From Streptomyces ferrugineus (GTDB lineage: Bacteria; Actinomycetota; Actinomycetes; Streptomycetales; Streptomycetaceae): a DNA stretch of 64,000 bases. Where the stretch lies: the NCBI RefSeq assembly GCF_015160855.1, contig NZ_CP063373.1, positions 5,766,001 through 5,830,000 of the forward strand. The letters run 5' to 3'. The notes below the pieces were generated by a model, which was not told the origin of the DNA, ran no database searches, and saw only the letters and a list, made by a program, of their open reading frames with translations. Position numbers and translations under genes: made by a program. Shown here piece after piece: positions 4,952-28,342 of this stretch; within the stretch, counting starts at the first letter, position 1; every line of letters starts with the position of its first letter.

Positions 4952-5067
4952 ATTCCGGGCAGGTCGGATTGAACCTAAGGTGACGTGCGGACGTACTCGT
5001 GGTGGCAGGCCCGGTGATCGGGCGCTGTTCGCCATGCCATCGCAAGACCGCACGGGAGGTCCTCCGG

Positions 5068-6936
5068 GTGTCGCAGGAGGCAACAGAGGCAGCAACACGG
5101 GAGTCGGAAGAAGCGGGGACGCCAGGGGCGGTCGATACGGCGGAGGCGGACAGCGGTGACGACGCTGTCTCGTCGGCCGACACAGACTCGTCCGCCGACA
5201 CGGCCCAGGCGTCGGAGACGTCGGAAGCCGCCGATGAGCCTGAGGCCGCCCGCCCCGCACAGCCGTCCGGCTCCACGCCCCGCCCCGGCTGGTTCGGCTG
5301 GCGGCGCCGCTTCCCCCGTACGGCACAGGGCGTCGCCGTCGGCACGACCGTGCTGGCCGCCGCGCTCCTGCTGTTCGCGCTCCTCGTGCCCAACCGTCTC
5401 GAACGGCTCGGGCCCGACGCGTTCTTCCGCCTCCCGGCCGAGGGGATCCTGCTGGCGGGGCTGCTGCTGGCGGTGCCGCCGCGATCACGGCGGCTGTTGT
5501 CGGTGGCCTCGGGGGTGTTCCTGGGTCTGCTCACCGTCCTGAAGTTCGTCGACATGGGCTTCTACTCGGTGCTGGCCCGCCCCTTCGACCTGGTCCTGGA
5601 CTGGATACTGCTGGACGACGCGGCGGAGTTCGTCCGGGAGTCCTTCGGCCGCACCGGACAGGTGCTCGCGGTGGTCGGGGTGATCGTGCTGCTCGTCGCG
5701 GTGCTCGTCCTCATGACGCTCGCGATGGTGCGCGTGACGAACCTGATGGTCCGCCATCGTGCCGTCGCCACCCGCACGACCCTGGTCCTCGGCACCGCGT
5801 GGATCACCTGTATGACCCTGAGCATCCAGATCGCCGGCGTCCCGCTCGCCACCAAGGGCAACGCCGAGTTCGTCAACAACCGCATCGACCAGGTGCAGGC
5901 GGGCCTCAAGGACGGCCGGATCTTCGAGAAGCAGGCGTCCGTCGACGCCTTCGCGAAGACACCGCCGGACCAGCTCCTGACGGGGCTGCGCGGCAAGGAC
6001 GTGCTGTTCACGTTCATCGAGAGCTACGGCCGGGTCGCGATCGACGACCCGGCGATGGCACCGCAGATCGACGCGGCGCTCGAGGAGGGCACGAACTCGC
6101 TCAAGGCGGCCGGGTTCCAGTCCCGCAGCGCCTGGCTGGAGGCACCGGTGACGGGGGCGGGCAGCTGGCTCGCCCACTCCACGTTCCTCTCCGGCCTCTG
6201 GATCAAGAACCAGCAGCGGTACCGGAGCCTGACGACCAGCGACCGCGCGACGCTGAACAGCTACTTCCGCAAGACGGGGGCGTGGCGCACGGTCGGCATC
6301 GTGCCGGGTGTGCGGCGGGCCTGGCCGGAGGGCAAGTTCTTCGCGCTCGACCACATCTACGACTCGGAGCACCTGGGCTACCAGGGCCCCTACTTCAGCT
6401 GGACGCCGGTGCCCGACCAGTTCAGCCTGGAGGCGTTCCAGCGGCTGGAGCACGGCAAGAAGAACCGCGACCCGATCATGGCGGAGATCATCCTGGCCTC
6501 CAGCCACAACCCCTGGTCCCCCATCGCCCGCATGGTCGACTGGGACGACCTCGGCGACGGCTCGGTCTTCCACCAGATCAAGAAGGAGGGCACCGACCCC
6601 AAGGAGGTCTGGCAGGACCCCGAGCGCGTGCGCACCGAGTACCGCCGCGCCATCGAGTACTCCCTGGACAGCCTCACCGAGTGGGTCGAGCGCTACGGCA
6701 CCGACGACACGGTCCTCGTCTTCCTCGGCGACCACCAGCCGGTGCCGACGGTCACCGCCGGCAGCACGAGCAAGGACGTCCCCGTCACGATCGTCGCCCG
6801 CGACCCGAAGGTCCTCGACCGGATCGCCGAGTGGAACTGGACGGACGGCCTCAAGCCCGCCGAGAACGCCCCGACCTGGGGCATGGACCGCTTCAGGGAC
6901 CGCTTCCTGACGGCGTACGGGCCGCAGGGGGGCTGA
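5068..6936 (+). CDS. Membrane-anchored sulfatase / LTA-synthase-like phosphotransferase
   Basis: 622 residues from GTG (GGGAGGT at 5054-5060); an in-frame start at 4999 lacks a ribosome site. Residues about 1-75 are Ala/Glu/Asp-rich and probably disordered. Four or five hydrophobic helices follow (starting near VAVGTTVLAAALLLFALLV), then an extracytoplasmic alkaline-phosphatase/sulfatase superfamily domain with FTFIESYGR, a Ser/Thr-rich AHSTFLSG block likely carrying the nucleophile, and the metal motif FLGDHQP near the end. The arrangement is that of LtaS-type lipoteichoic acid synthases and phosphoethanolamine transferases. True substrate (glycerol phosphate, phospholipid head group) is unknown. 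Stands alone, 117 bases after the acyl-CoA synthetase. Confidence 0.8.
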   Translation: MSQEATEAATRESEEAGTPGAVDTAEADSGDDAVSSADTDSSADTAQASETSEAADEPEAARPAQPSGSTPRPGWFGWRRRFPRTAQGVAVGTTVLAAALLLFALLVPNRLERLGPDAFFRLPAEGILLAGLLLAVPPRSRRLLSVASGVFLGLLTVLKFVDMGFYSVLARPFDLVLDWILLDDAAEFVRESFGRTGQVLAVVGVIVLLVAVLVLMTLAMVRVTNLMVRHRAVATRTTLVLGTAWITCMTLSIQIAGVPLATKGNAEFVNNRIDQVQAGLKDGRIFEKQASVDAFAKTPPDQLLTGLRGKDVLFTFIESYGRVAIDDPAMAPQIDAALEEGTNSLKAAGFQSRSAWLEAPVTGAGSWLAHSTFLSGLWIKNQQRYRSLTTSDRATLNSYFRKTGAWRTVGIVPGVRRAWPEGKFFALDHIYDSEHLGYQGPYFSWTPVPDQFSLEAFQRLEHGKKNRDPIMAEIILASSHNPWSPIARMVDWDDLGDGSVFHQIKKEGTDPKEVWQDPERVRTEYRRAIEYSLDSLTEWVERYGTDDTVLVFLGDHQPVPTVTAGSTSKDVPVTIVARDPKVLDRIAEWNWTDGLKPAENAPTWGMDRFRDRFLTAYGPQGG

Positions 6937-7539: not shown

Positions 7540-8811
7540 TCATGACCGGCCGAGCACGTCCTGCCCGTCGACCGTGTCGTACGCCGCGTCCGCCGCCTCG
7601 GTCAGGGCCTCGCCCTCGACGGCCGCGACGCCCGGCGAGGCGGAGCCACCCGTGCGCCGCCGCCTCAGACGCATCGCCACGGGTTCGGTGTAGCGGGCGG
7701 TGAGCGGGCCCACGATCACCAGGATCAGCACGTACGCGGTGGCCAGCGGTCCCAGGGACGGCTCGATGCCGGCGGTCACCGCGAGCCCGGCGATGACGAT
7801 GGAGAACTCACCGCGGGCCACCAGGGTTCCGCCCGCCCGCCAGCGGCCCTTGACGGAGATCCCCGCACGCTTGGCGGCCCAGTACCCGGTGGCGACCTTC
7901 GTGAGCGCGGTGACCACGGCCAGCGCGAGCGCGGGCAGCAGCACCGGCGGGATGCTCGCGGGGTCGGTGTGCAGCCCGAAGAAGACGAAGAACACCGCGG
8001 CGAACAGGTCCCGCAGCGGCGCCAGCAGATTGTGCGCCCCCTCCGCGACCTCGCCGGAGAGCGCGATGCCGACCAGGAACGCGCCGACCGCGGCCGAGAT
8101 CTGGAGCTGCTGGGCGAGTCCGGCCACGAGCAGGGTCAGGCCGAGCACGACCAGGAGCAGCTTCTCGGGGTCGTCGCTGGAGACGAAGCGCGAGATGTGG
8201 CGGCCGTAGCGGACCGCGAGCAGGAGGACGAGCCCGGCGGCGCCGAGCGCGATGGCGAGGGTGACGCTCCCCGCCGCGAGACCGGTGCCGGCCAGCAGGG
8301 CGGTGACGATCGGCAGGTAGACGGCCATGGAGAGGTCCTCGAGGACGAGGATGCTCAGGATGACCGGGGTCTCGCGGTTGCCGAGCCGGCCGAGGTCGCC
8401 GAGGACCTTGGCGATGACGCCGGAGGACGAGATCCAGGTGACGCCCGCCAGGACGACGGCGGCGACCGGGCCCCAGCCGAGCAGCAGGGCCATGCAGGCG
8501 CCCGGCAGCGCGTTGAGCGCGGCGTCGACGAGTCCGGCCGGGTACTGGGTCTTGAGGTTGGAGACGAGGTCGCTGGCCGTGTACTCGAGGCCGAGCATCA
8601 GCAACAGCAGGATCACGCCGATCTCGGCGCCGATGGCGACGAAGTCCTCGCTGGTGCCCAGGGGAAGCAGGCCGCCCTTGCCGAAGGCGAGCCCGACCAG
8701 CAGGTACAGGGGTATCGGCGAGAGCTGGAAGCGCCCGGCGAACCGGCCCAGCAGGCCGAGACCGAGGATGATCGCACCGAACTCGATGAGGAAGACCGCG
8801 GAGCTGTGCAT
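7540..8811 (-). CDS. khtU: K+/H+ antiporter, KhtU-type CPA2 membrane subunit
   Basis: 423 residues with roughly 12 hydrophobic helices, starting SSAVFLIEFGAIILGLGLLGRF. Typical CPA2 (KefB/KhtU) features are the LGTSEDFVAIGAEIGVILLLLMLGLEY region and the TWISSSGVIAKVLGDLGRLGNRETP loop. It exports K+ (or NH4+) in exchange for protons across the membrane. The preceding gene encodes the cytoplasmic KhtT-like regulatory subunit and ends 6 bases before this start, the same order as the Bacillus khtTU pair. Residues after about 390 form a short soluble tail. Confidence 0.85.
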   Translation of the reverse strand: MHSSAVFLIEFGAIILGLGLLGRFAGRFQLSPIPLYLLVGLAFGKGGLLPLGTSEDFVAIGAEIGVILLLLMLGLEYTASDLVSNLKTQYPAGLVDAALNALPGACMALLLGWGPVAAVVLAGVTWISSSGVIAKVLGDLGRLGNRETPVILSILVLEDLSMAVYLPIVTALLAGTGLAAGSVTLAIALGAAGLVLLLAVRYGRHISRFVSSDDPEKLLLVVLGLTLLVAGLAQQLQISAAVGAFLVGIALSGEVAEGAHNLLAPLRDLFAAVFFVFFGLHTDPASIPPVLLPALALAVVTALTKVATGYWAAKRAGISVKGRWRAGGTLVARGEFSIVIAGLAVTAGIEPSLGPLATAYVLILVIVGPLTARYTEPVAMRLRRRRTGGSASPGVAAVEGEALTEAADAAYDTVDGQDVLGRS

Positions 8812-8817
8812 CGCGGC

Positions 8818-9303
8818 TCACTCCCGCCCGAGTATCTCGGCGGCCGCCTCCACGCCCTCACGGGTGCCGATCACGATCAGGGTGTCGCCGCCGGCCAGCC
8901 GGAAGTCCGGGGTGGGCGAGGGGATGGCGTCGGCGCGGCGCAGTACGGCCACGATGGACACGCCGGTCTCGGTGCGCATCCGGGTCTCGCCGAGCAGCCG
9001 TCCGTTCCAGTACGAGGTGGCGGACAGTTCGACGCGCTCGGCGACGAGGCCCAACTCGGTGGTGGACAGCAGGTTCGGGCTGTGGTGGGCCGGCATCAGC
9101 GCGTCGATCAGCGTGGCCGCCTCGGCGGAGCTGAGCCTGACCGACAGCGCGCACGCGTCCGGGTCGTCCGTGCGGTACGCGCTCAGCGTCCGCGAGCCGT
9201 CCCGGTGGGCGACCACGGACATGCGGCGTTGCTCACGGGTGGTGAGGTCGTAGCGGACTCCGATGCCGGGCAACGGCGTACTGCTCAGGCGTGGCGCGCC
9301 CAC
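8818..9303 (-). CDS. khtT: KhtT-like regulatory subunit (N-terminal domain plus TrkA-C)
   Basis: 161 residues, GTG start with AGGGGGA upstream. Opens with the KhtT N-terminal domain (LSSTPLPGIGVRYDLTTREQRRMSVVAHRDGSR) and ends with an RCK_C/TrkA-C ligand-binding domain (RRADAIPSPTPDFRLAGGDTLIVIGTREGVE). In Bacillus KhtT this domain binds cyclic di-AMP and senses pH to gate KhtU; the same role is inferred here. Co-transcribed with the antiporter just downstream. Starts 51 bases after the stop of the adenylation fusion gene on the same strand. Confidence 0.87.
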   Translation of the reverse strand: MGAPRLSSTPLPGIGVRYDLTTREQRRMSVVAHRDGSRTLSAYRTDDPDACALSVRLSSAEAATLIDALMPAHHSPNLLSTTELGLVAERVELSATSYWNGRLLGETRMRTETGVSIVAVLRRADAIPSPTPDFRLAGGDTLIVIGTREGVEAAAEILGRE

Positions 9304-9354: not shown

Positions 9355-12198
9355 CTAACGAGTGCCGGGAGCCTGCACGAACGCGGCCGCTCGCCGCCTG
9401 TCGAGCCACCTGGGTGCGCACCGCATCAGGCGGGTCGCCAAGGAGCCGTACATCACGCCGACGGCCAGCGAGACCAGCAGCGCGAGCACGGGCGAGTCGT
9501 CGCGGATGTACGGGTAGACGTGGAAATGCGTCAGGTAGATGTACAGCGAGCTGCCCGCCAGCAGCCCCGCCAGCCGGTTGACCGGGTCCAGGCTGGGCAG
9601 CACCGGCACCCAGATCAGCAGGGCCAGCCCCGCCACGACGACGACCGTCCGCAGCGACTGGCCCTCAGCCCCGGGGAACAGCCCCGGCACGGTGGCCAGC
9701 AGTACCGCTGTCAGCAGCAGCCGCCGCGGCACCGTGCGTGCCCGCGCCGCCGCCCAGCCCAGGGCGAACAGGAAGAACACCACGGTGGGGCTCAGATGGA
9801 ACCGGACGTGGGCCAGCCCCAGCGGGTCGTACCGGCCGATCACCCCCAGCGCCACCAGGCCCAGCGCGAAACCGAACGGGCTGCGCCGCTCGGCCCGGTC
9901 CAGCAGCGGCAGAGCGAGGAGCGCGGTCAGCACGATCAGGAAGTGGACCAGCGCCTCCACGAACCAGTACCGCCACTCGGGGTGCGAATTGTCCTGTGGG
10001 AAGAGACTGTTGACCAGCAGCAGGTTGGCGAGGTCGTACTCGCGGGTCAGGGCCAGCGCGAAGGCCAGCCACACCATGCTCGGCACGGCGATGCGCAGGA
10101 TGCTGCGCCCCAGGGCGCGCACACGGCGCCCGCGCGGGGCGTCGGTGAGGTGGAAGCGGGCGAAGTTGAATCCGGCGACGCCGAGCAGGACATGCGCGCC
10201 GCCCTGGACGAAGTAGACGGGTATGTGTGCGCTGACCACGAGGACGATGCCGACGGCCCGCAGGGCGATGCCGGTCTCCAGCGTGCGTCTTCGGCGCGCC
10301 GGGCGCGGGGTCGGCGACGGGCCGGGGGCCCGCAACTCGCGGATGGGGGTGGTGTGCCAGTCGGCGGGCAGGGTGCCCAGTGCCTCTTCGAGGCGCAGCG
10401 ACATCTCGACGTAGGACAGGGAGTCGCCTCCCAGGCCGACGAAGCTGCTGTCCTCGGTGACGTCCCTGCGGTCGAGGATCTCGGCGTACAGGCGGCACAG
10501 TTCCTCGGTCGTCGCCTCGCCGGGGCGGTTCCGTGCGCTGTCCCGGGACGGTTCCGCCGCGGGGCGGGTCAGGCGTCGTACGGCCTCGTAGTCGGGCTTG
10601 CCCGTGGCCAGCCGGGGCAGATCCGGCACCACGCGGACGCGTATCGCGCGCACCGGCAGTCCGCATGCGTCCGCGACCAGGCGCCGCACTCGCGAGGCGT
10701 CCGCCTCCGCGCCCTCCTCGCTCGCCACCGCGACGGCCAGCGCGTCGTCGTCCCCGGCGCAGTACGCGCGCACGCCGTGCCGCTCCAGCAGCCCTTCGAC
10801 GCGCTGCGGGTCGATGCGCAGCCCGAGGATCTTCGCGAACCGGCTGCGTCGCCCGACGATCTCGTAGAGCCCGTCGGATGCGCGCCGGGCGATGTCTCCC
10901 GTGCGCAGTTCCCCGACGGTACGGCCGAGCGCCAGGTCCGCCGGGGTCTCGGCGTAGCCGAGCATGACGTTGGGTCCCGTGTACACGAGTTCGCCGGTGT
11001 CCGGCGCGCCGGTGCCGTCCGGGCCGTCCAGCGGCTCGAGCCGGAAGGAACCGCCGGGTATGGGCACGCCGACAGCCTGCGGGCGTTCGGCCGCGCGTCG
11101 GGGCGGCAGATAGGCCATCCGGGCCGTCGCCTCCGTCTGCCCGTACATCACGAACAGCTCCCAGCCCGCGCGGCGCCCCAACTCGGCGTATCGCACGACG
11201 CGTTCCGGCGCGAGCCGGCCGCCGGCCTGGGTGACGCGGCGCAGCTCGGGCAGCCGCATCCCCTCGAAGCCGACCCGGTCGAGCAGGTCGAAGGTGTACG
11301 GGACCCCGGCCAGCACCGTGCCCCGGGCGGCACGGAACAGCTCCCAGAAACCGGCGTCGGCCACGGACCGTCCGGTGACGATGAGTCCGGCACCGCGCAG
11401 CAGATGGCTGTTGATGACCGACAGTCCGTAGCAGTAGTGCATGGGCAGGGTGGTGGCGGCCCGGTCGCTGTCCCCGATGTCCTGGTACGAGGCGATGGAC
11501 TCGGCGTTGGCCTGGAGGTTGTCGTGGGAGAGCCGGACCAGTTTGGGTGAGCCCGTGGAGCCGGAGGTGCTCAGCAGCAGGGCGAGGTCGGGGTGGAGGG
11601 TGTGGGCGGAGGTGGGGTGCCGCTCGTCGAGGGCCCAGGTCGTGGTGCCGTTCTCGGCTTGTCGCGGTACGGCGACCACGTCGGGGGCGTAGGCGGCGGT
11701 CAGCGATTCGAGGGTGCTGTCGCTGTCGCCGGGGACCAGCAGGAGCGGATGCCCGGCCGACAGGGCGGCGAGGTAGACGACGAGGGCGTCGACCCGGTTG
11801 GCCCCGGCCAGCAGCACCAGGCGCCGGGCGGGACCGAGGCGTTCGGCCGTCTCGGCCACGCGCGCGGCCAGTTGCCGGTAGGAGAGCTCTCCGTCCTCAG
11901 TGATCAGCGCGGTGCGGTCGCCGAACGCGGCGAGGTTCCGGGCGAACGGCACGGTCCGGGGTTCCGCGCACGGTTGCCCTCCCCCGGCGGTGGTGGCGCC
12001 GCCGGGGACGGACGGTCCGGTGGACGGAGGGGCGAACAGGCCGGCGAACCGTTCTCTGACACGTCGTCCGGAGGCCGGACGTGCGGGCCGGAAGGGCGCG
12101 AAAGGAGACGGAAGCGGTGGAATGTCCGGGCGTGAGTCGGAGGGGATGGTCACGGGGCGCGCCCTTTCCGCTTCCATGGCGTCGTCCGCTGGTAGCAC
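9355..12198 (-). CDS. Adenylation - carrier - membrane acyltransferase fusion protein
   Basis: 947 residues from a GTG at 12198; an ATG at 12177 is an equally possible start, both with weak ribosome sites. Domains: about 85-545 adenylation domain (LLLSTSGSTGSPKLVRL, YGQTEATARMA, GRRSRFAKILGLRIDPQRVE, PRLATGKPDYEAVR); about 560-630 carrier domain with phosphopantetheine serine in LGGDSLSYVEMSLRLE; about 640-930 acyltransferase-3 domain with some ten helices, the LRAVGIVLVVSAH motif (Arg...catalytic His) and a terminal LYIYLTHFHVYP. It should activate an amino or carboxylic acid, load it on its own carrier and hand it to a membrane acceptor, like a one-chain DltA-DltC-DltB. An iron box lies between it and a ferric transporter, so the acceptor may be a siderophore or envelope polymer. 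Substrate unknown. Confidence 0.82.
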   Translation of the reverse strand: MLPADDAMEAERARPVTIPSDSRPDIPPLPSPFAPFRPARPASGRRVRERFAGLFAPPSTGPSVPGGATTAGGGQPCAEPRTVPFARNLAAFGDRTALITEDGELSYRQLAARVAETAERLGPARRLVLLAGANRVDALVVYLAALSAGHPLLLVPGDSDSTLESLTAAYAPDVVAVPRQAENGTTTWALDERHPTSAHTLHPDLALLLSTSGSTGSPKLVRLSHDNLQANAESIASYQDIGDSDRAATTLPMHYCYGLSVINSHLLRGAGLIVTGRSVADAGFWELFRAARGTVLAGVPYTFDLLDRVGFEGMRLPELRRVTQAGGRLAPERVVRYAELGRRAGWELFVMYGQTEATARMAYLPPRRAAERPQAVGVPIPGGSFRLEPLDGPDGTGAPDTGELVYTGPNVMLGYAETPADLALGRTVGELRTGDIARRASDGLYEIVGRRSRFAKILGLRIDPQRVEGLLERHGVRAYCAGDDDALAVAVASEEGAEADASRVRRLVADACGLPVRAIRVRVVPDLPRLATGKPDYEAVRRLTRPAAEPSRDSARNRPGEATTEELCRLYAEILDRRDVTEDSSFVGLGGDSLSYVEMSLRLEEALGTLPADWHTTPIRELRAPGPSPTPRPARRRRTLETGIALRAVGIVLVVSAHIPVYFVQGGAHVLLGVAGFNFARFHLTDAPRGRRVRALGRSILRIAVPSMVWLAFALALTREYDLANLLLVNSLFPQDNSHPEWRYWFVEALVHFLIVLTALLALPLLDRAERRSPFGFALGLVALGVIGRYDPLGLAHVRFHLSPTVVFFLFALGWAAARARTVPRRLLLTAVLLATVPGLFPGAEGQSLRTVVVVAGLALLIWVPVLPSLDPVNRLAGLLAGSSLYIYLTHFHVYPYIRDDSPVLALLVSLAVGVMYGSLATRLMRCAPRWLDRRRAAAFVQAPGTR

Positions 12199-12212: not shown

Positions 12213-12231
12213 TGAGGTTAGCTTTACCTTA
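12213..12231. promoter_or_regulatory. Iron box (DmdR/IdeR type) between divergent genes
   Basis: TGAGGTTAGCTTTACCTTA agrees with the actinobacterial iron-box consensus (TTAGGTTAGGCTAACCTAA) at 14 of 19 positions by eye. A TTGACG at 12206-12211 could be the -35 of the rightward transporter promoter, so bound repressor would cover the promoter. The stretch is clearly more AT-rich than its surroundings. Predicts iron repression of the transporter and probably of the adenylation fusion gene. Confidence 0.7.
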
Positions 12232-12337: not shown

Positions 12338-13378
12338 ATGCGACGCCCCACGGCCCGCCTGATCACCGCGCTCACCGCGATCGGCCTGCTCGTCCCCGCC
12401 CTCGCCGCCTGCGGCTCGGACGACAAGGGCGGCGGCTCGGGCGGCGGCGACGACGCCGCGCTGGTCATCTACTCCGGCCGCAACGAGAAGCTCGTCAAGC
12501 CGATCCTGGACAAGCTGGAGAAGGCCGTCGGCAGCGAGGTCGACGTCCGCTACGGCGAGAGCGCCGAGTTGGCGGCCCAGATCCTGGAGGAGGGCGACCG
12601 CACCAAGGCCGGGCTCTTCTTCTCCCAGGACGCCGGCGCGCTCGGGGCCCTGTCGAAGGAGGGCATGCTGGAGAAGCTGCCCCAGGCCACCCTCGACAAG
12701 GTGGACTCCGCCTACCGGGGCGGCGAGGGCGACTGGGTGGGCCTGTCGGGCCGCGTCCGCGTCATCGCGTACAACCCGGACAAGGTCGACAAGGCGCCCG
12801 ACAGCGTCCACGACGTGGTCAAGCCCGAGTGGAAGGGCAAGGTGGGCTTCGCGCCCACCAACGCCTCCTTCCAGGCCTTCGTCACCGGCATGCGGGTCCT
12901 GGAGGGCGACGACGCCACCCGCACCTGGCTCAAGGGCCTGAAGGCCAACGGCAAGACCTACAGCAACAACCTCGCCACGCTGGACGCCGTCGAGTCCGGC
13001 GAAGTCTCCCTCGGCCTGGTCAACCACTACTACTGGTACGAGCGGGTCGCCGAGAAGGGCGAGGACAAGGTGGGCGCCAAGCTGCACTTCCTGCCCGGCG
13101 GCGACCCCGGCGCGCTGATCAACGTCGCCGGAGCGGCCGTCCTCAAGGACGGCGGGCAGAGCGCGACCGCCCAAAAGGCCGTCGACTACCTGCTGTCGAA
13201 GGAGGCGCAGACCTACTTCGCCGAGGAGACCAAGGAGTACCCGCTGGCCGCCGGCGTGACCAGCCCGGTGCGGGACCTGCCCGCGCTGGACTCGCTTCAG
13301 GCCCCGGACATCGACCTGAGCAAGCTGGAGTCGCTCCAGGAGACCCTGGCCATGCTCCAGGACGTCGGGCTGGTCTGA
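12338..13378 (+). CDS. Ferric-iron ABC transporter substrate-binding lipoprotein (FbpA/FutA type)
   Basis: 346 residues; ATG at 12338 preceded by AGGAAGG is preferred over an in-frame ATG at 12290. A lipoprotein signal ends in LAACGSDD, so the mature protein is anchored outside the membrane by its Cys. The mature part opens [15 protein letters not shown] as in FbpA proteins, and carries the tyrosine-rich iron-ligand block NHYYWYE. First gene of fbpABC-like rightward operon behind the iron box; permease follows after 6 bases. Binds Fe3+ or a small ferric chelate. Confidence 0.9.
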
Positions 13379-13384
13379 TCCGAC

Positions 13385-15040
13385 GTGGGCACATCCCCTC
13401 AGTCCGTACGGGAGCCGGCCGCCCCGGACACCGAAGGCCGCCCGGCCCGGGTGTCCCCCGCGGCCGGGCTCCGGCGCACCCGCAGAGCCGTGGGACGGCT
13501 GCTCCCGGGCGCCGGCCCCGGCGTCCGCGCCACCGACCGCAGGCCTCCGTGGGTGCTGATCGTCCCCGCCTGCGTGGCGGCCCTGTTCGCGCTGCTCCCG
13601 CTCGGCTACCTCGCCGTCCGCGCGCTCGAACGCGGCCCCGGATACGCCTGGGACGTCGTCGCCGACGAGCGCACCCTCCAACTCGTCGGCCGCAGCCTGG
13701 GCCTCGCGCTCACCGTGGTGGCGGCCTGCCTCGTGCTGGGCGTCTCGCTGGCCTGGCTGACCGTGCGCACCGCCCTGCCCGGGGCCCGCGCCTGGTCGGT
13801 GCTGGCCACCCTGCCGCTCGCCGTGCCCAGTTACGTCGCCGCCTTCACCTGGCTGTCCGCCGCTCCGCGGACCGCCGGGTTCGCGGGGGCGGCGCTGGCC
13901 CTGACGCTGGTCAGCTTCCCCTATGTGCAGCTGCCGGTCGCCGCGGCGCTGCGCGGCATCGACCCGGCGCAGGAGGAGGCCGCACGCTCCCTCGGGCACG
14001 GCCCGTTGAGCACCTTCTGGCGGATCACGCTGCCGCAGCTGCGGCCGGCCGCGGCCGGCGGCGGGCTGCTCGTCGCGCTGTACGTCCTGTCCGACTTCGG
14101 CGCGGTCTCACTGATGCGGTACGACACCTTCACCTGGGCCATCCACACCTCGTACCGCGCCTCCTTCGACCGCACCCCGGCCGCCGCGCTGAGCGTCGTG
14201 CTGGTGGTGATGACCGTGGCGCTGGTCGCCGCCGAGGGCCGCACCCGGGGCCGCGCGGGCCACGCCAGGACCGGCACCGGCAGTGCTCGCCCCATCGCTG
14301 CGGTTCCCCTCGGACGCTGGCGGATCCCGGCCCTCGCGTGGTGCTCGGCGGTGACGGCCGTCGCGGTCGCCTTCCCGCTGGGCACCCTCGGCTACTGGCT
14401 GGCCGTCGGCACCTCCGCGACCCGGGACCTCGGCGGGCTCGCCGAGACGGCCTGGGCCACGCTGGGCGTCGCCGCCGCCGGAGCGGCCCTGACCACGCTG
14501 CTCGCCCTGCCGGTCGGCGTGATCGCGGCACGCCACCGGGGCCGCGGTGCCCGGCTGCTGGAGCAGGCGGCGTACGCGGGTCACGCGCTGCCCGGCATCA
14601 CCGTCGCGCTCGCCCTGGTCTTCTTCGCCGTCCGCTACGCCTACCCGCTCTACCAGCAACTCCCGTTGCTGATCTGCGCCTACGCCGTGCTGTTCCTTCC
14701 CGTCGCCGTGGCCGCCACCCGGGCCGCCGTACTGCAGGCGCCACCGGTGCTCGAGGACGTCGCCCGCTCGCTGGGGCGACGTCCGCTGCGGGTGCTGCGG
14801 GACGTGACGGTGCCGCTGGCCGCTCCGGGCGTCGCCGCCGGGGCCGCGCTCACCTTCGTGGTCTGCATGAAGGAACTCCCCGCGACGCTGCTGCTGCGCC
14901 CCACCGGCATGGACACCCTCGCCACCCGGCTGTGGACCGAGACCGGTGCCGGGTCCTTCGCCGCGGCCGCCCCCTACGCCGCGGCACTCATCCTGCTGGC
15001 CGCCGTCCCCTCGTACCTGCTGGGCAGGCACCGCACATGA
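13385..15040 (+). CDS. Iron ABC transporter permease, fused two-half FbpB type
   Basis: 551 residues from GTG, starting 6 bases after the lipoprotein stop and without a clear own ribosome site, so translation is probably coupled. Two similar permease halves are joined, each with a BPD-transport EAA loop: EEAARSLGHGPLSTFWRITLP in the first and LEDVARSLGRRPLRVLRDVTVP in the second. About 12 membrane helices. Residues 1-50 are a Pro/Arg-rich cytoplasmic tail. Forms the membrane channel for the FbpA-like protein and the ATPase encoded downstream. Confidence 0.9.
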   Translation: MGTSPQSVREPAAPDTEGRPARVSPAAGLRRTRRAVGRLLPGAGPGVRATDRRPPWVLIVPACVAALFALLPLGYLAVRALERGPGYAWDVVADERTLQLVGRSLGLALTVVAACLVLGVSLAWLTVRTALPGARAWSVLATLPLAVPSYVAAFTWLSAAPRTAGFAGAALALTLVSFPYVQLPVAAALRGIDPAQEEAARSLGHGPLSTFWRITLPQLRPAAAGGGLLVALYVLSDFGAVSLMRYDTFTWAIHTSYRASFDRTPAAALSVVLVVMTVALVAAEGRTRGRAGHARTGTGSARPIAAVPLGRWRIPALAWCSAVTAVAVAFPLGTLGYWLAVGTSATRDLGGLAETAWATLGVAAAGAALTTLLALPVGVIAARHRGRGARLLEQAAYAGHALPGITVALALVFFAVRYAYPLYQQLPLLICAYAVLFLPVAVAATRAAVLQAPPVLEDVARSLGRRPLRVLRDVTVPLAAPGVAAGAALTFVVCMKELPATLLLRPTGMDTLATRLWTETGAGSFAAAAPYAAALILLAAVPSYLLGRHRT

Positions 15041-15121
15041 AACCTCCGAGGCAGGCATCGCACATGACTCCCCGAGACAGGCTCCGCACATGACTCCCCG
15101 AGACGGGCACCGCCGATGACG
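15027..15121 (+). repeat. Imperfect 26-27 bp tandem repeats at the permease/ATPase junction
   Basis: Units begin at 15027, 15054, 15080 and (partial) 15106, each opening GGC(A/T)(C/T)CG. The first three contain CACATGA and the last runs into the ATPase start, GATGACG. Units 2 and 3 differ at only a few bases. The array starts inside the permease 3' end and ends over the ATPase start codon, so it separates the two genes and carries several extra ATG triplets. Confidence 0.75.
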
Positions 15122-16162
15122 AACGACCTCCACATCGAGCAACTGGCCAAGTCCTACGGCCCCGAGGCCCATGTGCTGCGCGGGCTGGACCTCGACGTGC
15201 CGGGCGGCGCCCTGGCCGCCGTGCTCGGCCCCTCCGGCTGCGGCAAGACCACCCTGCTGCGCGTCGTCGCCGGATTCCTGCGCGCCGACGCCGGTTCGGT
15301 CACCGTCGGGGGACGGCGGCTGACCGGGCCCGGTGTCCAGCTGCCGCCCGAGCGGCGGCGCGTCGGCATCGTGCCGCAGGAGGGCGCCCTCTTCCCGCAT
15401 CTGAGCGTGGCCCGCAACGTGGCCTTCGGGCTGTCCGGCCTGGACCGGGGCGAGCGGCGCCGCCGCACGGAGGAGATGCTCGACCTGGTCGGACTCGCCG
15501 GATACGGCGAGCGGATGCCGCATGAGCTGTCCGGTGGCCAGCAGCAGCGCATCGCCCTGGCCAGGGCGCTCGCCCCGCGGCCCCAGCTCGTGCTGCTGGA
15601 CGAGCCCTTCAACGCCCTCGACAGCGCGCTGCGCGCCGGCGTGCGGGCCGACGTGCGCGCCGCCCTGCGCGCCACCGGGGCGACGGCGGTACTGGTCACC
15701 CACGACCAGCAGGAGGCCCTGTCGACCGCCGACCTGGTCGCGGTCGTACGGCAGGGCCGGGTCGCCCAGTGCGACACGCCGCAGGCGCTCTACCGGCGCC
15801 CCGCCGACCCCTGGGTGGCCGGGTTCGTCGGCGACGCCGTCGTGCTCCCCGGCACGGTCGAGCACGGCGGCCGCACGGTCGCCACGGCTCTGGGCACCGT
15901 GCCGCTGGCCGCCCCGTCCGAGGGCTCCGGGTCCGGCACGGTGCTGCTGCGGCCCGAGCAGTTGCGGCTGACGGAGGCGGAGCCGGGCGGAGCGCGAGGC
16001 ACGGTGACCGATGTGTGCTTCTACGGCCACGATGCGAAGGTGACCGTGTCCGTGGCGGGAGTCGACGCCCCCGTCGACGTCCGCGTCGCGGGTCCGGTGT
16101 CGGTGCGGCCCGGCGAGGAGACGGGCCTGCGCCTCACGGGCGAGGCCACGCTCCACCGTTGA
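15116..16162 (+). CDS. Iron ABC transporter ATP-binding protein (FbpC type)
   Basis: 348 residues. Walker A GPSGCGKTT, signature LSGGQQQRIALARAL, Walker B LVLLDEPFNALD and switch His in LVTHDQQEA are all intact. The C-terminal 110 residues form a TOBE-type regulatory domain (VLLRPEQLRL). Energises the FbpA/FbpB-like proteins encoded just upstream. The ATG is the fourth member of a repeated ATG-containing unit and lacks a strong ribosome site. The 3' end overlaps the convergent hydrolase gene by 29 bases. Confidence 0.92.
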   Translation: MTNDLHIEQLAKSYGPEAHVLRGLDLDVPGGALAAVLGPSGCGKTTLLRVVAGFLRADAGSVTVGGRRLTGPGVQLPPERRRVGIVPQEGALFPHLSVARNVAFGLSGLDRGERRRRTEEMLDLVGLAGYGERMPHELSGGQQQRIALARALAPRPQLVLLDEPFNALDSALRAGVRADVRAALRATGATAVLVTHDQQEALSTADLVAVVRQGRVAQCDTPQALYRRPADPWVAGFVGDAVVLPGTVEHGGRTVATALGTVPLAAPSEGSGSGTVLLRPEQLRLTEAEPGGARGTVTDVCFYGHDAKVTVSVAGVDAPVDVRVAGPVSVRPGEETGLRLTGEATLHR

Positions 16163-20014: not shown

Positions 20015-20124
20015 GACTCATGATCCTCGGTGTGTGGCCGAGGCGGGTCAAGCACCTGGCTGGTGCGGTCCGACCCATGGGTACGCTCAACCGCTCCTTC
20101 CCTCAAAGACGTTGGGAGGCACAG

Positions 20125-22539
20125 ATGCGCACCACTCGCCCGAGACGCTTCCTCGTGGCGGCCGCGGCCCTGCTCACGGCATCGGCCACGCTGCCGGCCG
20201 CGGCGGCCGACCGGCCGGATCACCGCGAACGTCCCTCGCACGGCGCCATGTCCGCCGTGCTCCGCTACACCGAGTACGGCATTCCGCACATCGTCGCCGA
20301 CGACTACAAGTCCCTCGGCTTCGGCACCGGTTGGGCGCAGGCCGCCGATCAGGTGTGCACGCTGGCCGACGGGTTCGTGACCGTCCGCGGTGAGCGCTCG
20401 CGCTTCTTCGGGCCGGACGCGGCGACCGACTTCTCGCTGTCGTCGGCCACCAGCAACCTCTCCAGTGACCTGTACTTCCGCGGCGTACGCCAGGCCCGCA
20501 CGGTGGAGAAGCTGCTCGCCGAACCGGCGCCGCGCGGGCCCAGCCGCCAGGTGAAGGACCTGATGCGGGGCTTCGCGGCCGGGTACAACGTCTGGCTGAA
20601 GCGGAACCGGATCACCGACCCGGCCTGCAAGGGCGCCACTTGGGTGCGACCGGCCACCACGCTGGATGTGGCCGCCCGTTTCCACGCCCTCGCCGTGCTC
20701 GGAGGCCAGGGCGGCATCGTGGACGAGATCACGTCCGCCCGGCCGCCCACCGGCTCGGCAGCCGAGACCACGGGCACCGGTGCGGACGCCGAGGCCCTGA
20801 TACGGGCCGTACGCGAACGGACCGCCGATGCGGGCATGGGCTCGAACGCGGTCGCCTTCCGTGGCGACACCACGGCGAACGGCCGCGGTCTGCTGCTGGG
20901 CAACCCGCACTACCCCTGGCAGGGCGGGCGCCGCTTCTGGCAGGCCCAGCAGACGATCCCCGGCGAGCTCGACGTGGCCGGCGCCGCGCTGCTGGGGTCG
21001 CCGACGATCGCCATCGGCTACAACTCCCACGTGGCGTGGAGCCACACGGTGTCGACCGGTGTCCCGTTCAGCCTGCACCGGCTGGCCCTGGATCCCGCCG
21101 ACCCCACCGTCTACCTGGTGGACGGCAAGCCGGAGCGGATGAGGAAGCGCACCGTGACCGTCGCGGTCAAGGACGGCACACCGGTGACCCGCACCCAGTG
21201 GTGGACCCGCTACGGCCCCGTCGCCGCCTCCACCGACGGCGCGCTCCCGCTGCCCTGGACGGCGACCACGGCGTACGCGCTCAACGACCCCAACGCGGCC
21301 AACCTGCGCTTCGCGGACACCTCGCTCGGCTTCGGCAAGGCGCGCGCAACGGCCGACATCGCCAGGTCCCTCACCCGGCACCAGGGCCTGCCCTGGGTGA
21401 ACACCATCGCCGCGGACTCCTCGGGACACTCCCTGTACACCCAGTCGCAGGTGCTGCCCCGGATCACCGACGACCTCGTGGCGCGGTGTTCGACGGACCT
21501 GGGCCGGACCACCTACCCGGCGGCGGGCGTCGCGGTCCTCGACGGCTCCCGCGGCGACTGCGCGCTCGGCAGCGACCGCGACGCCGTCCAGCGCGGGACG
21601 TTCGGGCCCTCGCGCATGCCCACGCTGAAGGACGCGCCGTATGTGGAGAACTCCAACGACAGCGCGTGGCTCAGCAACGCCGACCGGCCGTTGACCGGTT
21701 ACGAGCGGATCTTCGGCAGCATCGGCACCCAGCGCTCCCTGCGCACCCGCGGCGCGATCGAGGACGTGGCGGCGATGGCGGCGCGGGGCGGACTGACCGT
21801 CCGGGACCTGGAGCGTCAGCAGTTCGCGAACCGGGTGCCGGCGGGCGACCTGGCGACGGCCGACGTGGCGAAGGCGTGTGCCGCGCTGCCGGGCGGTACG
21901 GCAACCGGCAGTGACGGCAGGGCCGTTGACGTGTCCGGGGCCTGCCCGGTGCTGGCGGCGTGGGACCGCACCATGGACACCGGCAGCCGGGGCGCCCTGC
22001 TCTTCGACCGGTTCTGGCGGAAACTGACCGCGACGGTTCCGGCCGCCCAGCGGTGGAAGGTGCCGTTCTCGGCGGCGGACCCGGTGCGCACCCCGAACAC
22101 GCTCAACACCGGCGCTCCCGGCTTCGCCACGGCCCTCGCGGACGCGGTCGCCGAGCTGCGGGCGGCGGGCATCGCGCTGGACTCCCGCCTCGGCGAGCAC
22201 CAGGTCGTCGTACGCAACGGCCAACGTGTCCCCGTGCACGGCGGCACGGAGGGGATGGGTGTGTGGAACAAGATCGAGCCGGTGTGGGACCAGGCGCGGG
22301 GCGGCTACACGGAGGTGACGACCGGTTCCAGCCACATCCAGGCGGTGGGCTGGGACGGCAGCCGCTGCCCGGTGGCACGCACGCTGCTGACGTACTCGCA
22401 GTCGTCCAACCCGGGCTCGCCCCACTTCAGCGACCAGACCCGGTTGTTCTCGGGTGAGAGGTGGGTGAGCGCGCGCTTCTGCGAGAAGGACATTCTGGCG
22501 TCACCCGCGTTGAGGGTCGTCCGCTTGAGCGAACGCTGA
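20125..22539 (+). CDS. Secreted Ntn-hydrolase acylase (penicillin/AHL/cyclic-lipopeptide acylase family)
   Basis: 804 residues; ATG at 20125 has GGGAGG upstream, and the longer frame from 20020 is rejected. A signal peptide with an AAA-type cleavage region precedes the mature chain. The Ntn nucleophile is Ser240 in AGMGSNAVAF, where autoprocessing would separate alpha and beta chains; further family blocks are GNPHYPWQGGRRFWQAQQTIPG and AIGYNSHVAWSHTVSTG. Members include Streptomyces penicillin V acylase, aculeacin A acylase and the AHL acylase AhlM, and the length fits them. It would remove fatty acyl chains from amides outside the cell. A hairpin terminator follows directly. Confidence 0.92.
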   Translation: MRTTRPRRFLVAAAALLTASATLPAAAADRPDHRERPSHGAMSAVLRYTEYGIPHIVADDYKSLGFGTGWAQAADQVCTLADGFVTVRGERSRFFGPDAATDFSLSSATSNLSSDLYFRGVRQARTVEKLLAEPAPRGPSRQVKDLMRGFAAGYNVWLKRNRITDPACKGATWVRPATTLDVAARFHALAVLGGQGGIVDEITSARPPTGSAAETTGTGADAEALIRAVRERTADAGMGSNAVAFRGDTTANGRGLLLGNPHYPWQGGRRFWQAQQTIPGELDVAGAALLGSPTIAIGYNSHVAWSHTVSTGVPFSLHRLALDPADPTVYLVDGKPERMRKRTVTVAVKDGTPVTRTQWWTRYGPVAASTDGALPLPWTATTAYALNDPNAANLRFADTSLGFGKARATADIARSLTRHQGLPWVNTIAADSSGHSLYTQSQVLPRITDDLVARCSTDLGRTTYPAAGVAVLDGSRGDCALGSDRDAVQRGTFGPSRMPTLKDAPYVENSNDSAWLSNADRPLTGYERIFGSIGTQRSLRTRGAIEDVAAMAARGGLTVRDLERQQFANRVPAGDLATADVAKACAALPGGTATGSDGRAVDVSGACPVLAAWDRTMDTGSRGALLFDRFWRKLTATVPAAQRWKVPFSAADPVRTPNTLNTGAPGFATALADAVAELRAAGIALDSRLGEHQVVVRNGQRVPVHGGTEGMGVWNKIEPVWDQARGGYTEVTTGSSHIQAVGWDGSRCPVARTLLTYSQSSNPGSPHFSDQTRLFSGERWVSARFCEKDILASPALRVVRLSER

Positions 22540-22788: not shown

Positions 22789-24252
22789 ATGGGCCGTACT
22801 GTGCCTGAACAGAAACGTGTATGGACGACAGGAACTGCTCCAGGCATATTCCCGCTCCTTGGTCACGGTATCGCGTTCTACCGACAACCGCTGGCGTTTC
22901 TCAATTCTTTGCCCACGTACGGGGATCTGGTCGAGATACGGCTGGGCCCCCAGCGCGCATGGATGGTGTGCCATCCGGAGCTGACCCACGAGGTGCTGAT
23001 GGATCCGCACACCTTCGACAAAGGGGGCCCGCTCTACGACAGGCTCGGAAAGCTGATGGGGGACGGTCTCGTCACCTGCCGTCAGCCGACGCACCGGGCC
23101 AAGCGCGCGCTGCTGCAACCCCACTTCCGGCCCTCCCACGTCGCGCATTACACGGACCTCGTCACGGAGGAGGCCGAGGCGGTGTGCCAGGGGTGGCAGA
23201 CGGGTCGGACGGTTCCCGTCACCCAGGCGATGATGACGCTCACGACCCGCGTGACCAGCCGTGTTCTGCTCTCCGACTCGCTGGACGACACGACGACCGC
23301 CGAGGTGGGGGACTGTCTCGCCGATGTGGTCCGTGGTCTGTTCGTCCGCACGGTCGTACCGATCGACGCCCTGTTCCGCCTCCCCACACCCCCCAACCGC
23401 CGCTATCGGCGCGCGCTGTCCCGACTGCACGCGATCATCGACGCGGTGATCGCGGAGCGCCGCAGGGGCCCCGACCGCGACGACGTGCTGGGAACCCTGC
23501 TGACCGCCGCGCGCGACGACGGCGGCGCGCCGGCGATCACCGACCAGGAGGTCCACGACCACCTGATCACGCTGCTGCTGACCGGCGTCGAGACCCAGGC
23601 ACTGACCCTGGCCGGGGTCTTCAGCCTGCTGGCCCGCCATCCGGAGGTGGAGCGACAACTGCACGCCGAGCTCGACTCCGTCCTCGCCGAAGGCCGACGA
23701 CCCGGTCCCGACGATCTGCCGCACCTCGTCTACACCCGGCGCGTCGTCACCGAGACGCTGCGCCACTCGTCTCCCGGCTGGCTCTTCACCCGCGTCGCCA
23801 CCCGGGAGACGGAACTCGCCGGATGCCGTCTGCCCAAGGGTGCTGCCGTCCTGTACAGCCCCTACCTCCTGCACCACGATCCCGCGTCGTTCCCCGACCC
23901 CGAGCGTTTCGACCCCGACCGCTGGCTGCCGGGGCGGTCCACCGCCGAGCAGCGTCGCGCGATGATGCCGTTCTCCGCGGGCAACCGCAAATGCATCGGT
24001 GACGAGTTCGCGATGGTGGAGGCCACCCTGGCGCTGGCGACCATCGCCGGCCGCCGGCGCCTGAGTCATCTGCCGGGGTACGCCGATCAGAAGCCGCGGC
24101 CCGGGATCACGATGGGACCACGTTCCCTGGTCATGTTCTGCGAACCCCGTTCGCGTACGCCCTCCGCCGCCTCGCTCACGCCCCGGGCAACAGCGGGCCG
24201 GCGCACATCGGACATCCGGACGGCAGGTGACGACGTTGTCGACAACGCATGA
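22789..24252 (+). CDS. Cytochrome P450, probable sesquiterpene oxidase
   Basis: 487 residues from the ATG with GGAGGG just upstream; a longer frame from 22663 is not supported. P450 hallmarks: I-helix LLLTGVETQALTLAG (the acid-alcohol pair is E-T), K-helix ETLR, and the haem loop FSAGNRKCIGDEFAM with ligand Cys402. The N-terminal PGIFPLLGHGIAFYRQPLAFL resembles terpene P450s such as CYP170 and PtlI types but differs from CYP170A1 as I remember it. It overlaps the terpene synthase gene by 26 bases, so it should oxidise that enzyme's hydrocarbon product. It needs ferredoxin and reductase encoded elsewhere. The last 30 residues, covering the overlap, are a non-conserved tail. Confidence 0.9.
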   Translation: MGRTVPEQKRVWTTGTAPGIFPLLGHGIAFYRQPLAFLNSLPTYGDLVEIRLGPQRAWMVCHPELTHEVLMDPHTFDKGGPLYDRLGKLMGDGLVTCRQPTHRAKRALLQPHFRPSHVAHYTDLVTEEAEAVCQGWQTGRTVPVTQAMMTLTTRVTSRVLLSDSLDDTTTAEVGDCLADVVRGLFVRTVVPIDALFRLPTPPNRRYRRALSRLHAIIDAVIAERRRGPDRDDVLGTLLTAARDDGGAPAITDQEVHDHLITLLLTGVETQALTLAGVFSLLARHPEVERQLHAELDSVLAEGRRPGPDDLPHLVYTRRVVTETLRHSSPGWLFTRVATRETELAGCRLPKGAAVLYSPYLLHHDPASFPDPERFDPDRWLPGRSTAEQRRAMMPFSAGNRKCIGDEFAMVEATLALATIAGRRRLSHLPGYADQKPRPGITMGPRSLVMFCEPRSRTPSAASLTPRATAGRRTSDIRTAGDDVVDNA

Positions 24253-25243
24253 GGAAATCAAGCTCGGCGCACCGGGCGGAATGCCGGTCTCCACTCTCCG
24301 GGACCTGATCGACACCAACCTCCGTATGCCTTTTCCGTTCCAGCGCAACCCTCATGAACCCGAAGCCGCGACGGGCGTCGACGCCTGGCTGAAGGTGTGG
24401 GGGCTGACGGACGATCCGGATGTGGCGGCGATGATCGCCCGCACCCGACCCGCCGAACTCGCCTGCTACACCAGCCCCTCCATGGATGCCGGTCTGCTGC
24501 AGATCGTGGCCCATCAGATCGCCTATCAGTTCGTCTTCGACGACCTCGCGGAGGATCTCGGCCGGCACTCTCCGGGCAGGCTGCTCCCCCTGCTGTGCGA
24601 AAGCGTCGCGATTCTGCGGGACGGCAGGCCGCCCAGCACTCCCCTCGGAGCCGCCCTGGCCGATCTCCACCGCCAGGTCCGGGAACGGTGCACACCCGCA
24701 CAGGCCGCGCGATGGGCCTGGCAGAGCCGTGAATACGTGCACGGCCTGTTGTACGAGGCCGTGGCCCAGACCCACCCGTTCCTCCCGCGCACCGGCGACT
24801 GCACCTCCATACGGTCGCTGACCGCGGGCGTCGAGCCGTTCTACCCGCTGTACGAGGCCGCCCAGCCACGGGAACCGACCGCGGCCGAGGTGCATCACCC
24901 CGTCGTACGGCGGCTGAGCCGGCTGTCGGCCGACGCGGCGGTGTGGACGGCCGACCTGTTCTCCGCGGTGAAGGAACAGCGCGCGGGCGAGATGATCAAC
25001 ATCGCCCTGGCCCACCAGCGCGAACACCGGTGCTCACTACAGACGGCCGTGCTCCTGGCCATCGAGGAGATCAACGGCACGATCGAGACGTTCGAAAGGC
25101 TCTACGACGGGATCAAACCGGAGTTGAGCCCCGCGGGCGTCGGCTATGTGGAGGGCATGATCGGGTGGATCCGCGGGTGCTACGACTGGTCGCGCACCGT
25201 GCCTCGCTACGCGGACGTGACGTCGGTGCCCGCCGTGCCGTAG
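24227..25243 (+). CDS. Class I terpene synthase (sesquiterpene cyclase) with altered NSE triad
   Basis: 338 residues from GTG. The first metal motif is D105-D106-L-A-E-D, within the usual DDxx(D/E) range. The second, normally NDxxSxxxE, reads A242-D-L-F-S246-A-V-K-E250: the Asn that binds Mg2+ is Ala, while Ser and Glu remain. The C-terminal RY pair (PRYADV) is kept, and length is normal for bacterial sesquiterpene synthases. It would ionise farnesyl (or geranyl) diphosphate and cyclise it in the cytoplasm; the Asn loss may change metal binding or product, or lower activity. Coupled to the upstream P450 and followed 48 bases later by a LAL regulator. Confidence 0.88.
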   Translation: MTTLSTTHEEIKLGAPGGMPVSTLRDLIDTNLRMPFPFQRNPHEPEAATGVDAWLKVWGLTDDPDVAAMIARTRPAELACYTSPSMDAGLLQIVAHQIAYQFVFDDLAEDLGRHSPGRLLPLLCESVAILRDGRPPSTPLGAALADLHRQVRERCTPAQAARWAWQSREYVHGLLYEAVAQTHPFLPRTGDCTSIRSLTAGVEPFYPLYEAAQPREPTAAEVHHPVVRRLSRLSADAAVWTADLFSAVKEQRAGEMINIALAHQREHRCSLQTAVLLAIEEINGTIETFERLYDGIKPELSPAGVGYVEGMIGWIRGCYDWSRTVPRYADVTSVPAVP

Positions 25244-28200: not shown

Positions 28201-28342
28201 GCCGGTGGCCGTGATCGCCAAGGAACTGCACCTGACCGAGCAAGGGGTGCGGCAGTTGCTGTCCAGCGTCTACCGCAAGATCGGCACCGATGCGGCGGGC
28301 CTCGCCAGGGCCCTGGAGGCCCTTCCCCGTGTGCGTCCCTGA
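25292..28342 (+). CDS. LAL-family (LuxR with AAA ATPase) transcriptional regulator
   Basis: 1016 residues from GTG; an ATG at 25430 is a possible shorter start. N-terminal ATPase with Walker A GPAGLGKT (98-105) and Walker B VVLLLDDLHWAD near 200; a long middle part of helical TPR-like repeats; C-terminal LuxR HTH (LTAQERRTAELTVEGKPVAVIAKELHL, about 955-1005). Such large regulators commonly control Streptomyces secondary-metabolite clusters and respond to nucleotides or small ligands. Same direction and 48 bases after the terpene synthase, so it may control this P450/terpene operon. It ends 2 bases before the convergent acyl-CoA synthetase. Confidence 0.9.
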   Translation: MSTTQRGGILPPTVHDSPNGAQSGLPPLDEAYARLLRAERQKAVRQMAMEPRHPVTQQRTLIERRRELQALDAAFKELRGATDGVPRARRRGLLAFSGPAGLGKTALITQARDRAVASGLTVLSGRGGEKEQGSAFRVVRQFMQPWLARMEGAELHDFLGSWYDVMAAVLGLEARGTAPAPDPTGVREGLDWVMTRLTIKKAPVVLLLDDLHWADAESLSWLDSFASRVDDLPLLIVVAYRPDELPSEAGELRTLVGHHGDERPHDLAHLTPEGVAQIIRDQVGEAAEDVFCKECWSATGGSPFETVELAIGLAERGLSGSEDDAPAMRELAAAIKGPGLIERLEGLDTATVRFAHAAAVLGSPFSPQLAAAIAVLGEETAAEAAQKLRAARILTDGHGPEGELEFVHPLIATTIYRSIRSGFRAGLHNAAAEAVLNAGYGPTAAARHLLEVSCEGRPETVECLREAAREYLRAGATEAAQRLLTRALQEPPLPEDRAAILHELAGATFLIEPTATVRHLRQALAEPHVDPDLRASIVYRLTTALAHTDRMAEAATVAAEEARQATNPRVKLRMQADQFVWSTMRADDPDSPARSRTLARLAEQLPGRSLEERYILGLRAWDAVLRGEPRQTALTYAEKSLHGGMSWTDENRGFEVPLSVALVFMYGDQPRRAEELFEKGIAECAGKGWHGSHLAFGQTIAGYVRYHRGCLAEAEDLVREGLRIADKVEGVVAARWYGVSVLIQTLLARGRVIEARALADDHHFGEMAPNAIIYPDPRTVYAELLLAEGRHAEAAALLSAVGDWLDGRAWRNPAWCPWQLRLATALVPTAPDAAIAHAQDAVHRARDFGAASVVGQALHTLAEVTGGPAALELYAEAVDHLEQSPASYELARAQVGHGAALSRNGRLQEAADRLYQGLEGAVHCGAEALATRAREELSAAGLRPLPLRYVHADALTAQERRTAELTVEGKPVAVIAKELHLTEQGVRQLLSSVYRKIGTDAAGLARALEALPRVRP

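Follow-up and report, generated by a model that had tools for sequence, protein, structure and literature searches.

An iron-box-associated gene fusing adenylation, carrier and transmembrane acyltransferase domains in Streptomyces ferrugineus and other Actinomycetota

Introduction

It is, to our knowledge, not clear how ferric iron is supplied to the FbpABC-type importers of actinobacteria. This question is raised by a 64,000-nucleotide stretch of the Streptomyces ferrugineus genome (contig NZ_CP063373.1, positions 5,766,001 to 5,830,000; hereafter the window, with coordinates counted from its first letter), in which genes for an FbpABC-type importer lie divergent from a gene that encodes an adenylation domain (A), a carrier domain (T) and an Acyl_transf_3-type transmembrane acyltransferase domain (AT3) in a single chain. 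We call this gene A-T-AT3. We propose, on a case that we regard as evenly balanced, that its product activates an amine-free small acid, predicted to be di- or tricarboxylic, loads it onto its own carrier and passes it to an extracytoplasmic acceptor, and that the gene is iron-repressed and the acylated compound so formed likely serves to bind ferric iron for the FbpABC predicted beside it.

Results

A single chain with activation, carrier and transferase domains

The open reading frame (ORF) of A-T-AT3 is uninterrupted over its 947 amino acids (Table 1), with a second possible start at an ATG at 12174; residues 1-77 are of low confidence in the predicted model. Three Pfam domains score above their cut-offs, namely AMP-binding at residues 85-415 (151.6 bits, cut-off 29.9), PP-binding at residues 566-609 (29.8 bits, cut-off 20.8) and Acyl_transf_3 at residues 645-919 (40.1 bits, gathering cut-off 31), which bears out the sequence-only reading of this DNA, according to which one polypeptide holds acid activation, a carrier and a membrane acyltransferase. 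The adenylation and carrier domains are of the nonribosomal peptide synthetase (NRPS) type and possess the active Lys and Ser, and neither a condensation nor a thioesterase Pfam domain, as found in NRPSs, occurs within the polypeptide itself. The predicted fold of the AT3 domain matches HGSNAT, which assigns it to the transmembrane acyltransferase (TmAT) fold.

Known families capture the protein only in part. It matches 85 NCBIfam models, the best 25 of which all score far under their cut-offs (exosortase-associated ligase, 139.7 of 592 bits; amino-acid adenylation domain, 136.2 of 317). Taken by itself, the AT3 part matches neither an NCBIfam model nor a PDB sequence at E <= 1. The full-length match is unique in its own 9.96-Mb genome, where 24 other matches span only parts of residues 19-638.

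A tblastn scan (E <= 1e-3) of one genome per species across 84,980 species returned 183 stretches, and the best 80, which were kept, all match A-T-AT3 over most of its length. They come from Streptomyces (53), Rhodococcus with Rhodococcoides (10), Actinomadura (4), Micromonospora (3), Nocardioidaceae (3), Catellatospora (2), Arthrobacter (2) and, with one each, a Micromonosporaceae metagenome-assembled genome, Spirilliplanes and Phytoactinopolyspora. We aligned 92 homologues, some of them nearly identical, from these 80 loci and from 12 genomes of a class-level draw. Invariant in all 92 are Ser593, Lys534, Arg360, Gly258, Ala325, Arg647, His658, Gly666, His669, Asn678, Trp745 and Tyr888; Arg681, Glu748 and His891 are kept in 91 and Arg692 in 90. 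Position 256 is Cys in 88 homologues, Val in two and Ser in two. In the OafB motif, the first helix carries an Arg and a His separated by about 11 residues, and the Arg647-His658 spacing agrees with it throughout. The sequence-only reading was thus right that the Arg/His motif is intact, and the loss of the carrier Ser or catalytic His that would have spoken against it is seen in none of the 92.

An iron box precedes the gene at most loci

With the 19-bp IdeR/DmdR1 consensus given in the available text of PMC8464063 as reference, the box between the divergent genes is the sole site in the window with at least 13/19 matches. In the relatives we scanned a region that begins 500 bp upstream of the match and extends 60 bp into it, at a threshold of at least 14/19. 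A box was present at 76/80 loci, as opposed to 1/1405 random regions of the same loci, and it was found in Streptomyces (52/53) and in other genera (24/27) alike. The four loci without one are L029, which has eight bases of upstream sequence, L071 and L090 (10/19 each) and L078 (13/19). A 300-bp version of the scan gave 75/80 loci, compared with 14/7900 dinucleotide-preserving shuffles and 0/396 regions upstream of other picked ORFs of at least 250 amino acids. Among the 12 class-draw genomes, a box stands upstream of A-T-AT3 or heads the Fbp operon in 11, with none in L110. Where FbpA is not beside A-T-AT3, 9 of the 12 operons checked (from five carrier genomes and seven of the nine FbpA genomes that lack A-T-AT3) have a box of at least 14/19 upstream of FbpA. 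These observations lead us to predict that A-T-AT3 is iron-repressed through a DtxR/IdeR-type box. The parts available of the Streptomyces coelicolor DmdR1 regulon paper (PMC12161575) and of PMC13061897 make no mention of such a gene.

Linkage to and co-occurrence with FbpABC-type genes

The FbpA-type protein of the window finds its best PDB match in 7w3w (E 6.9e-74), with HitA at E 3.4e-64, and its NHYYWY motif aligns with NNYY and NNYYWY of solved relatives, which bind ferric iron itself. An LAAC motif after a hydrophobic stretch suggests that it is likely a lipoprotein. None of the NCBIfam equivalog models for binding protein, permease or ATPase was over its cut-off among the best 25 per protein; the window ATPase scores 235.7 bits against a cut-off of 496 for the ferric ABC model NF008513.

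Linkage was counted by tblastn because our ORF picker at times chose antisense ORFs as neighbours (clusters 3 and 4). All three transporter genes are present at 53 of the 59 loci with full flanks, and the binding-protein gene at 16 of the 21 with short flanks. Binding-protein and permease genes lie near A-T-AT3 at 76 of the 92 loci, in divergent orientation at 61, with A-T-AT3 followed by Fbp at 8, Fbp followed by A-T-AT3 at 4 and convergently at 3; the remaining 16 lack this pair, some of them since the contig ends. The sequence-only reading had noted the divergence from a ferric transporter across an iron box and judged an iron role plausible. Both statements agree with the FbpA-type gene and 15/19 box of the window and with the box and linkage counts across loci, and homologues are not consistently located away from iron genes.

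We saw no conserved neighbours other than the Fbp genes, neither an exporter for a siderophore nor a further biosynthetic gene. Pfam searches revealed no common theme among ten neighbour proteins from eight loci, namely L071 and seven that have no Fbp genes in reach. Directly downstream of A-T-AT3 in the window lie genes for a TrkA_C protein and then a Na/H exchanger membrane protein (7540-9303, minus strand), a pair found by tblastn at only one of the 80 loci (L013).

The class-level draw allowed co-occurrence to be counted without regard to distance. A-T-AT3 is present in 13 of its 60 genomes, the window's own included. FbpA (E <= 1e-20) is encoded in 13/13 carriers versus 9/47 other genomes (Fisher p = 9.6e-8, shared ancestry ignored), and in five carriers (G002, G030, G034, G047 and G048) it is distant from A-T-AT3. 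The nine non-carriers with FbpA have only partial adenylation matches. This one-way pattern, in which the gene implies FbpA and not the reverse, is what would be expected if the product were useful only with that importer. A phylum-level draw, in which four candidates were scored per genome, gives a lower bound of at least 12/198 genomes with the gene. The distribution is patchy even inside the window's genus, since A-T-AT3 is found in 0/7 other same-genus genomes of the two draws.

Relatives at 35-40% identity occur on proteobacterial plasmid records (Rhizobium, Leisingera, Sinorhizobium, Rhodobacter and a record labelled Roseateles), and no relative was confirmed on viral contigs. Four proteobacterial proteins that we aligned retain Arg647 and His658 and have Gly or Ala at position 669. 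The genes L141 (9959-12568; Rhizobium etli p42e), L142, L143 and L144 encode such proteins with no FbpA-type genes nearby, and a helix-turn-helix regulator gene adjoins A-T-AT3 in L141 and L142. These proteins possibly represent the same chemistry serving another purpose. The relative in Rhodobacter sp. CZR27 lies near an ABC transporter, but the binding protein there is of NMT1 type.

The adenylation pocket points to an acid without an amine

The best solved matches of the pocket segment are VinN entries (E 5.3e-12), with an oxalate-CoA ligase almost level (8.4e-12) and feruloyl- and malonyl-CoA ligases next. Counting along the alignment, Asp, Ser and Arg of VinN (chain positions 246, 315 and 347, or 230, 299 and 331 under an inferred offset of 16) stand opposite Cys256, Ala325 and Arg360. 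According to the available text of the respective papers, Asp230 touches the substrate amine (PMC7756342), the alpha-carboxylate is recognised by Ser299 and Arg331 or by Arg331 alone (PMC7756342; PMC12186527), and Arg331 sits in a loop one residue shorter than usual (PMC11253843). Among 23 other adenylation domains of the same genome, Arg is found at the Arg360 column in none and Asp at the Cys256 column in 11. From the replacement of the amine-contacting Asp by Cys256 and the retention of the carboxylate-recognising Arg, we infer that the substrate is an acid that lacks an amine but has a second carboxylate. A phmmer alignment to LgrA places Gly258 rather than Cys256 opposite Asp, while the VinN and 23-domain alignments place Cys256 there; neither residue is acidic, whichever alignment is taken. 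Whole-model structure matches (Foldseek, VIA) mostly reflect the adenylation domain and do not tell one substrate from another.

On a Parabacteroides plasmid, L145 (7522-9386) encodes a stand-alone adenylation enzyme that has the same pocket motifs, with Ser replacing Cys256, and belongs to a polysaccharide cluster that also encodes two carrier proteins and a KAS III. It is likely a split relative of A-T-AT3 and could reveal the acid used. In the window's genome, a salicylate synthase gene over cut-off (G000:C1:5361002-5362255) lies about 8 kb from a long adenylation ORF (5370228), in what is probably a separate siderophore cluster.

Discussion

Proposed mechanism and its alternatives

Given its intact domains, the protein would convert an acid and ATP to an adenylate and then to a thioester on Ser593. 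The fusion suggests that the carrier arm feeds the AT3 pore, from which, judging by the AT3/TmAT fold, the acyl group would be transferred to an acceptor outside. The product would then bind ferric iron for collection by FbpA, a step suggested by the box, the linkage and the one-way co-occurrence. A wall glycan or a lipid could act as the acceptor, as could a small molecule that is then released as a diffusible carboxylate siderophore. A more specific version, which we put forward tentatively, is a one-gene "surface siderophore" route: upon iron starvation a di- or tricarboxylic acid would travel on the protein's own phosphopantetheine arm into the TmAT pore and be fixed outside, forming a layer or ester that binds ferric iron and gives it up to the FbpA lipoprotein.

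Several observations weigh against the proposal. The box of the divergent pair could serve the transporter alone, which is countered by the 11 of 80 loci with no Fbp genes in reach, as 10 of these still have it (the exception is L029). Arg360 could be the mark of a clade and not of a substrate, because the Arg is also found in the Parabacteroides enzyme and in the four proteobacterial relatives, which have Ser in place of Cys256; the oxalate-CoA ligase has Leu at the Arg360 position. Outside the class, six more carriers encode FbpA-like proteins in five cases (two at 29-31% identity), adjacent to A-T-AT3 in two, and have a box upstream of A-T-AT3 in one. Finally, the available text of a review favours acyl-CoA over acyl carrier protein as the physiological AT3 donor (PMC9558356), so a carrier-fed AT3 would be an exception.

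The iron box, linkage and co-occurrence would fit equally well if A-T-AT3 made a secreted, diffusible small siderophore by coupling the acid at the membrane to a small polar acceptor molecule, with FbpABC taking up the ferric complex or its iron. Di- and tricarboxylic acids are usual iron ligands of carboxylate siderophores, but the direct ferric binding by solved FbpA-type relatives and the lack of an exporter or further biosynthetic gene among the conserved neighbours that we saw make this route the less likely one. We consider it improbable that the acyl group remodels the envelope in iron starvation, altering surface charge or protecting the wall without direct chelation, with shared regulation as the sole basis of the FbpABC linkage. 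The available text of PMC9558356 describes known AT3 proteins as modifying surface glycans, and the proteobacterial relatives lack FbpA-type neighbours; shared regulation alone nevertheless does not explain why FbpA accompanies the gene in every class-draw carrier, including the five with the genes far apart.

Other choices of acid fare worse. That a siderophore-type phenol, from salicylate or 2,3-dihydroxybenzoate, is fixed on the surface strikes us as very unlikely: BasE and PchD head the whole-model structure matches, which include DhbE, yet these are tied with many others, and salicylate synthase is over cut-off in 3/13 carrier genomes, the window's among them, and DhbA in 0/13. Arg360, Gly258 and Ala325 are invariant whereas aryl-acid pathways vary among carriers, and an aryl acid is thus unlikely as the common substrate. 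We give equally little credence to a Dlt-like route in which an amino acid is passed to a wall polymer. Its order of steps is identical, with activation followed by a carrier and a membrane transferase, but the membrane domain is AT3 and not MBOAT, and the residues found at the amine-contact position disfavour an amino acid. The Dlt-like activation of an amino acid suggested by the sequence-only reading is not supported by this position, which is Cys in nearly all homologues as against Asp in 11/23 other adenylation domains.

Relation to known systems

The Dlt system of Gram-positive bacteria (DltA, DltC, DltB and DltD) resembles A-T-AT3 in that an adenylate-forming activation, a carrier and a membrane acyltransferase pass an acyl group outward. 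It differs in using separate proteins instead of one chain, and D-Ala bound through an amine-binding Asp where A-T-AT3 has Cys256. On the features compared, A-T-AT3 falls outside Dlt by its predicted pocket, which lacks that Asp, and by its Acyl_transf_3 domain in place of the MBOAT transferase DltB. We know of no iron role for Dlt.

The AT3/TmAT acyltransferases OafB, OatA and HGSNAT share with A-T-AT3 the Acyl_transf_3 domain, the predicted HGSNAT-like fold and the first-helix Arg and His, but A-T-AT3 brings activation and carrier domains of its own in the same chain. The AT3 fusions named in the available text of the review that favours acyl-CoA donors are to SGNH and Ala-racemase (PMC9558356). 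VinN-type stand-alone adenylation enzymes are the closest in pocket sequence and share the carboxylate-recognising Arg; they differ in having Asp and Ser where A-T-AT3 has Cys256 and Ala325, and A-T-AT3 keeps a loop before the Arg that is one residue longer than that of VinN. The AmcH-type 2-oxoglutaryl-ACP ligase (NF058661), whose family name implies that it charges a carrier with a non-amino dicarboxylic acid, is matched at 81.6 bits, far under the family cut-off of 370. By sequence, the neighbour genes are of the FbpABC/HitABC ferric transporter type, and we know of no adenylation-carrier-AT3 partner of the solved relatives. The sequence-only reading knew of no described system of this kind. 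Our search of one open-access full-text library agrees, as none of the papers listed describes such a protein in its title or the start of its abstract, which does not prove absence.

Table 1. Coordinates of the A-T-AT3 locus within the window
Feature	Position	Strand	Remarks
A-T-AT3 gene (adenylation, carrier and transmembrane acyltransferase in a single chain)	9355..12198	-	947 aa, GTG start at 12198
AT3 transmembrane acyltransferase domain, about residues 639-941	9376..10284	-	Pfam Acyl_transf_3, predicted HGSNAT-like fold, conservation; Arg647, His658, His669, Glu748, Tyr888, His891
Carrier (peptidyl or acyl carrier protein) domain, about residues 563-625	10324..10512	-	Pfam PP-binding; phosphopantetheine Ser593 (GGDSLS), codon 10420-10422
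Adenylation domain, about residues 85-545	10564..11946	-	Codons of Arg360 11119-11121, Cys256 11431-11433, Lys534 10597-10599
DtxR/IdeR/DmdR1-type iron box (predicted)	12213..12231		15/19 to consensus, between divergent genes
FbpA-type ferric-binding protein	12338..13378	+	ATG at 12338 after AGGAAGG; longest ORF from 12290
FbpB-type permease, two-domain	13385..15040	+	Two BPD_transp_1 stretches
FbpC-type ATPase with TOBE_2 domain	15116..16162	+	Domain match

Other genes of the window

A Penicillin-amidase family protein is encoded at 20020-22539 (plus strand); the available text of PMC12161575 describes the DmdR1-controlled desG of S. coelicolor as a member of the penicillin-amidase family. 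At 4999-6936 (plus strand) lies a gene for a 645-residue membrane-type protein that has no Pfam match at E 0.01 and looks sulfatase- or lipoteichoic acid synthase-like by eye only. A gene for a large AAA_16 ATPase-type protein adjoins a terpene synthase gene (25292-28342 and 24227-25243, both on the plus strand).

Implications for iron supply and acyl transfer

If the proposed relay is correct, we know of no earlier case of a transmembrane acyltransferase that receives its acyl group from a fused carrier protein, nor of an earlier relay of this type dedicated to iron uptake. The gene spans genera from Streptomyces to Rhodococcus and Arthrobacter, and it would make both the supply of iron to FbpABC and the use of a carrier-bound donor by an AT3 protein testable through one gene.
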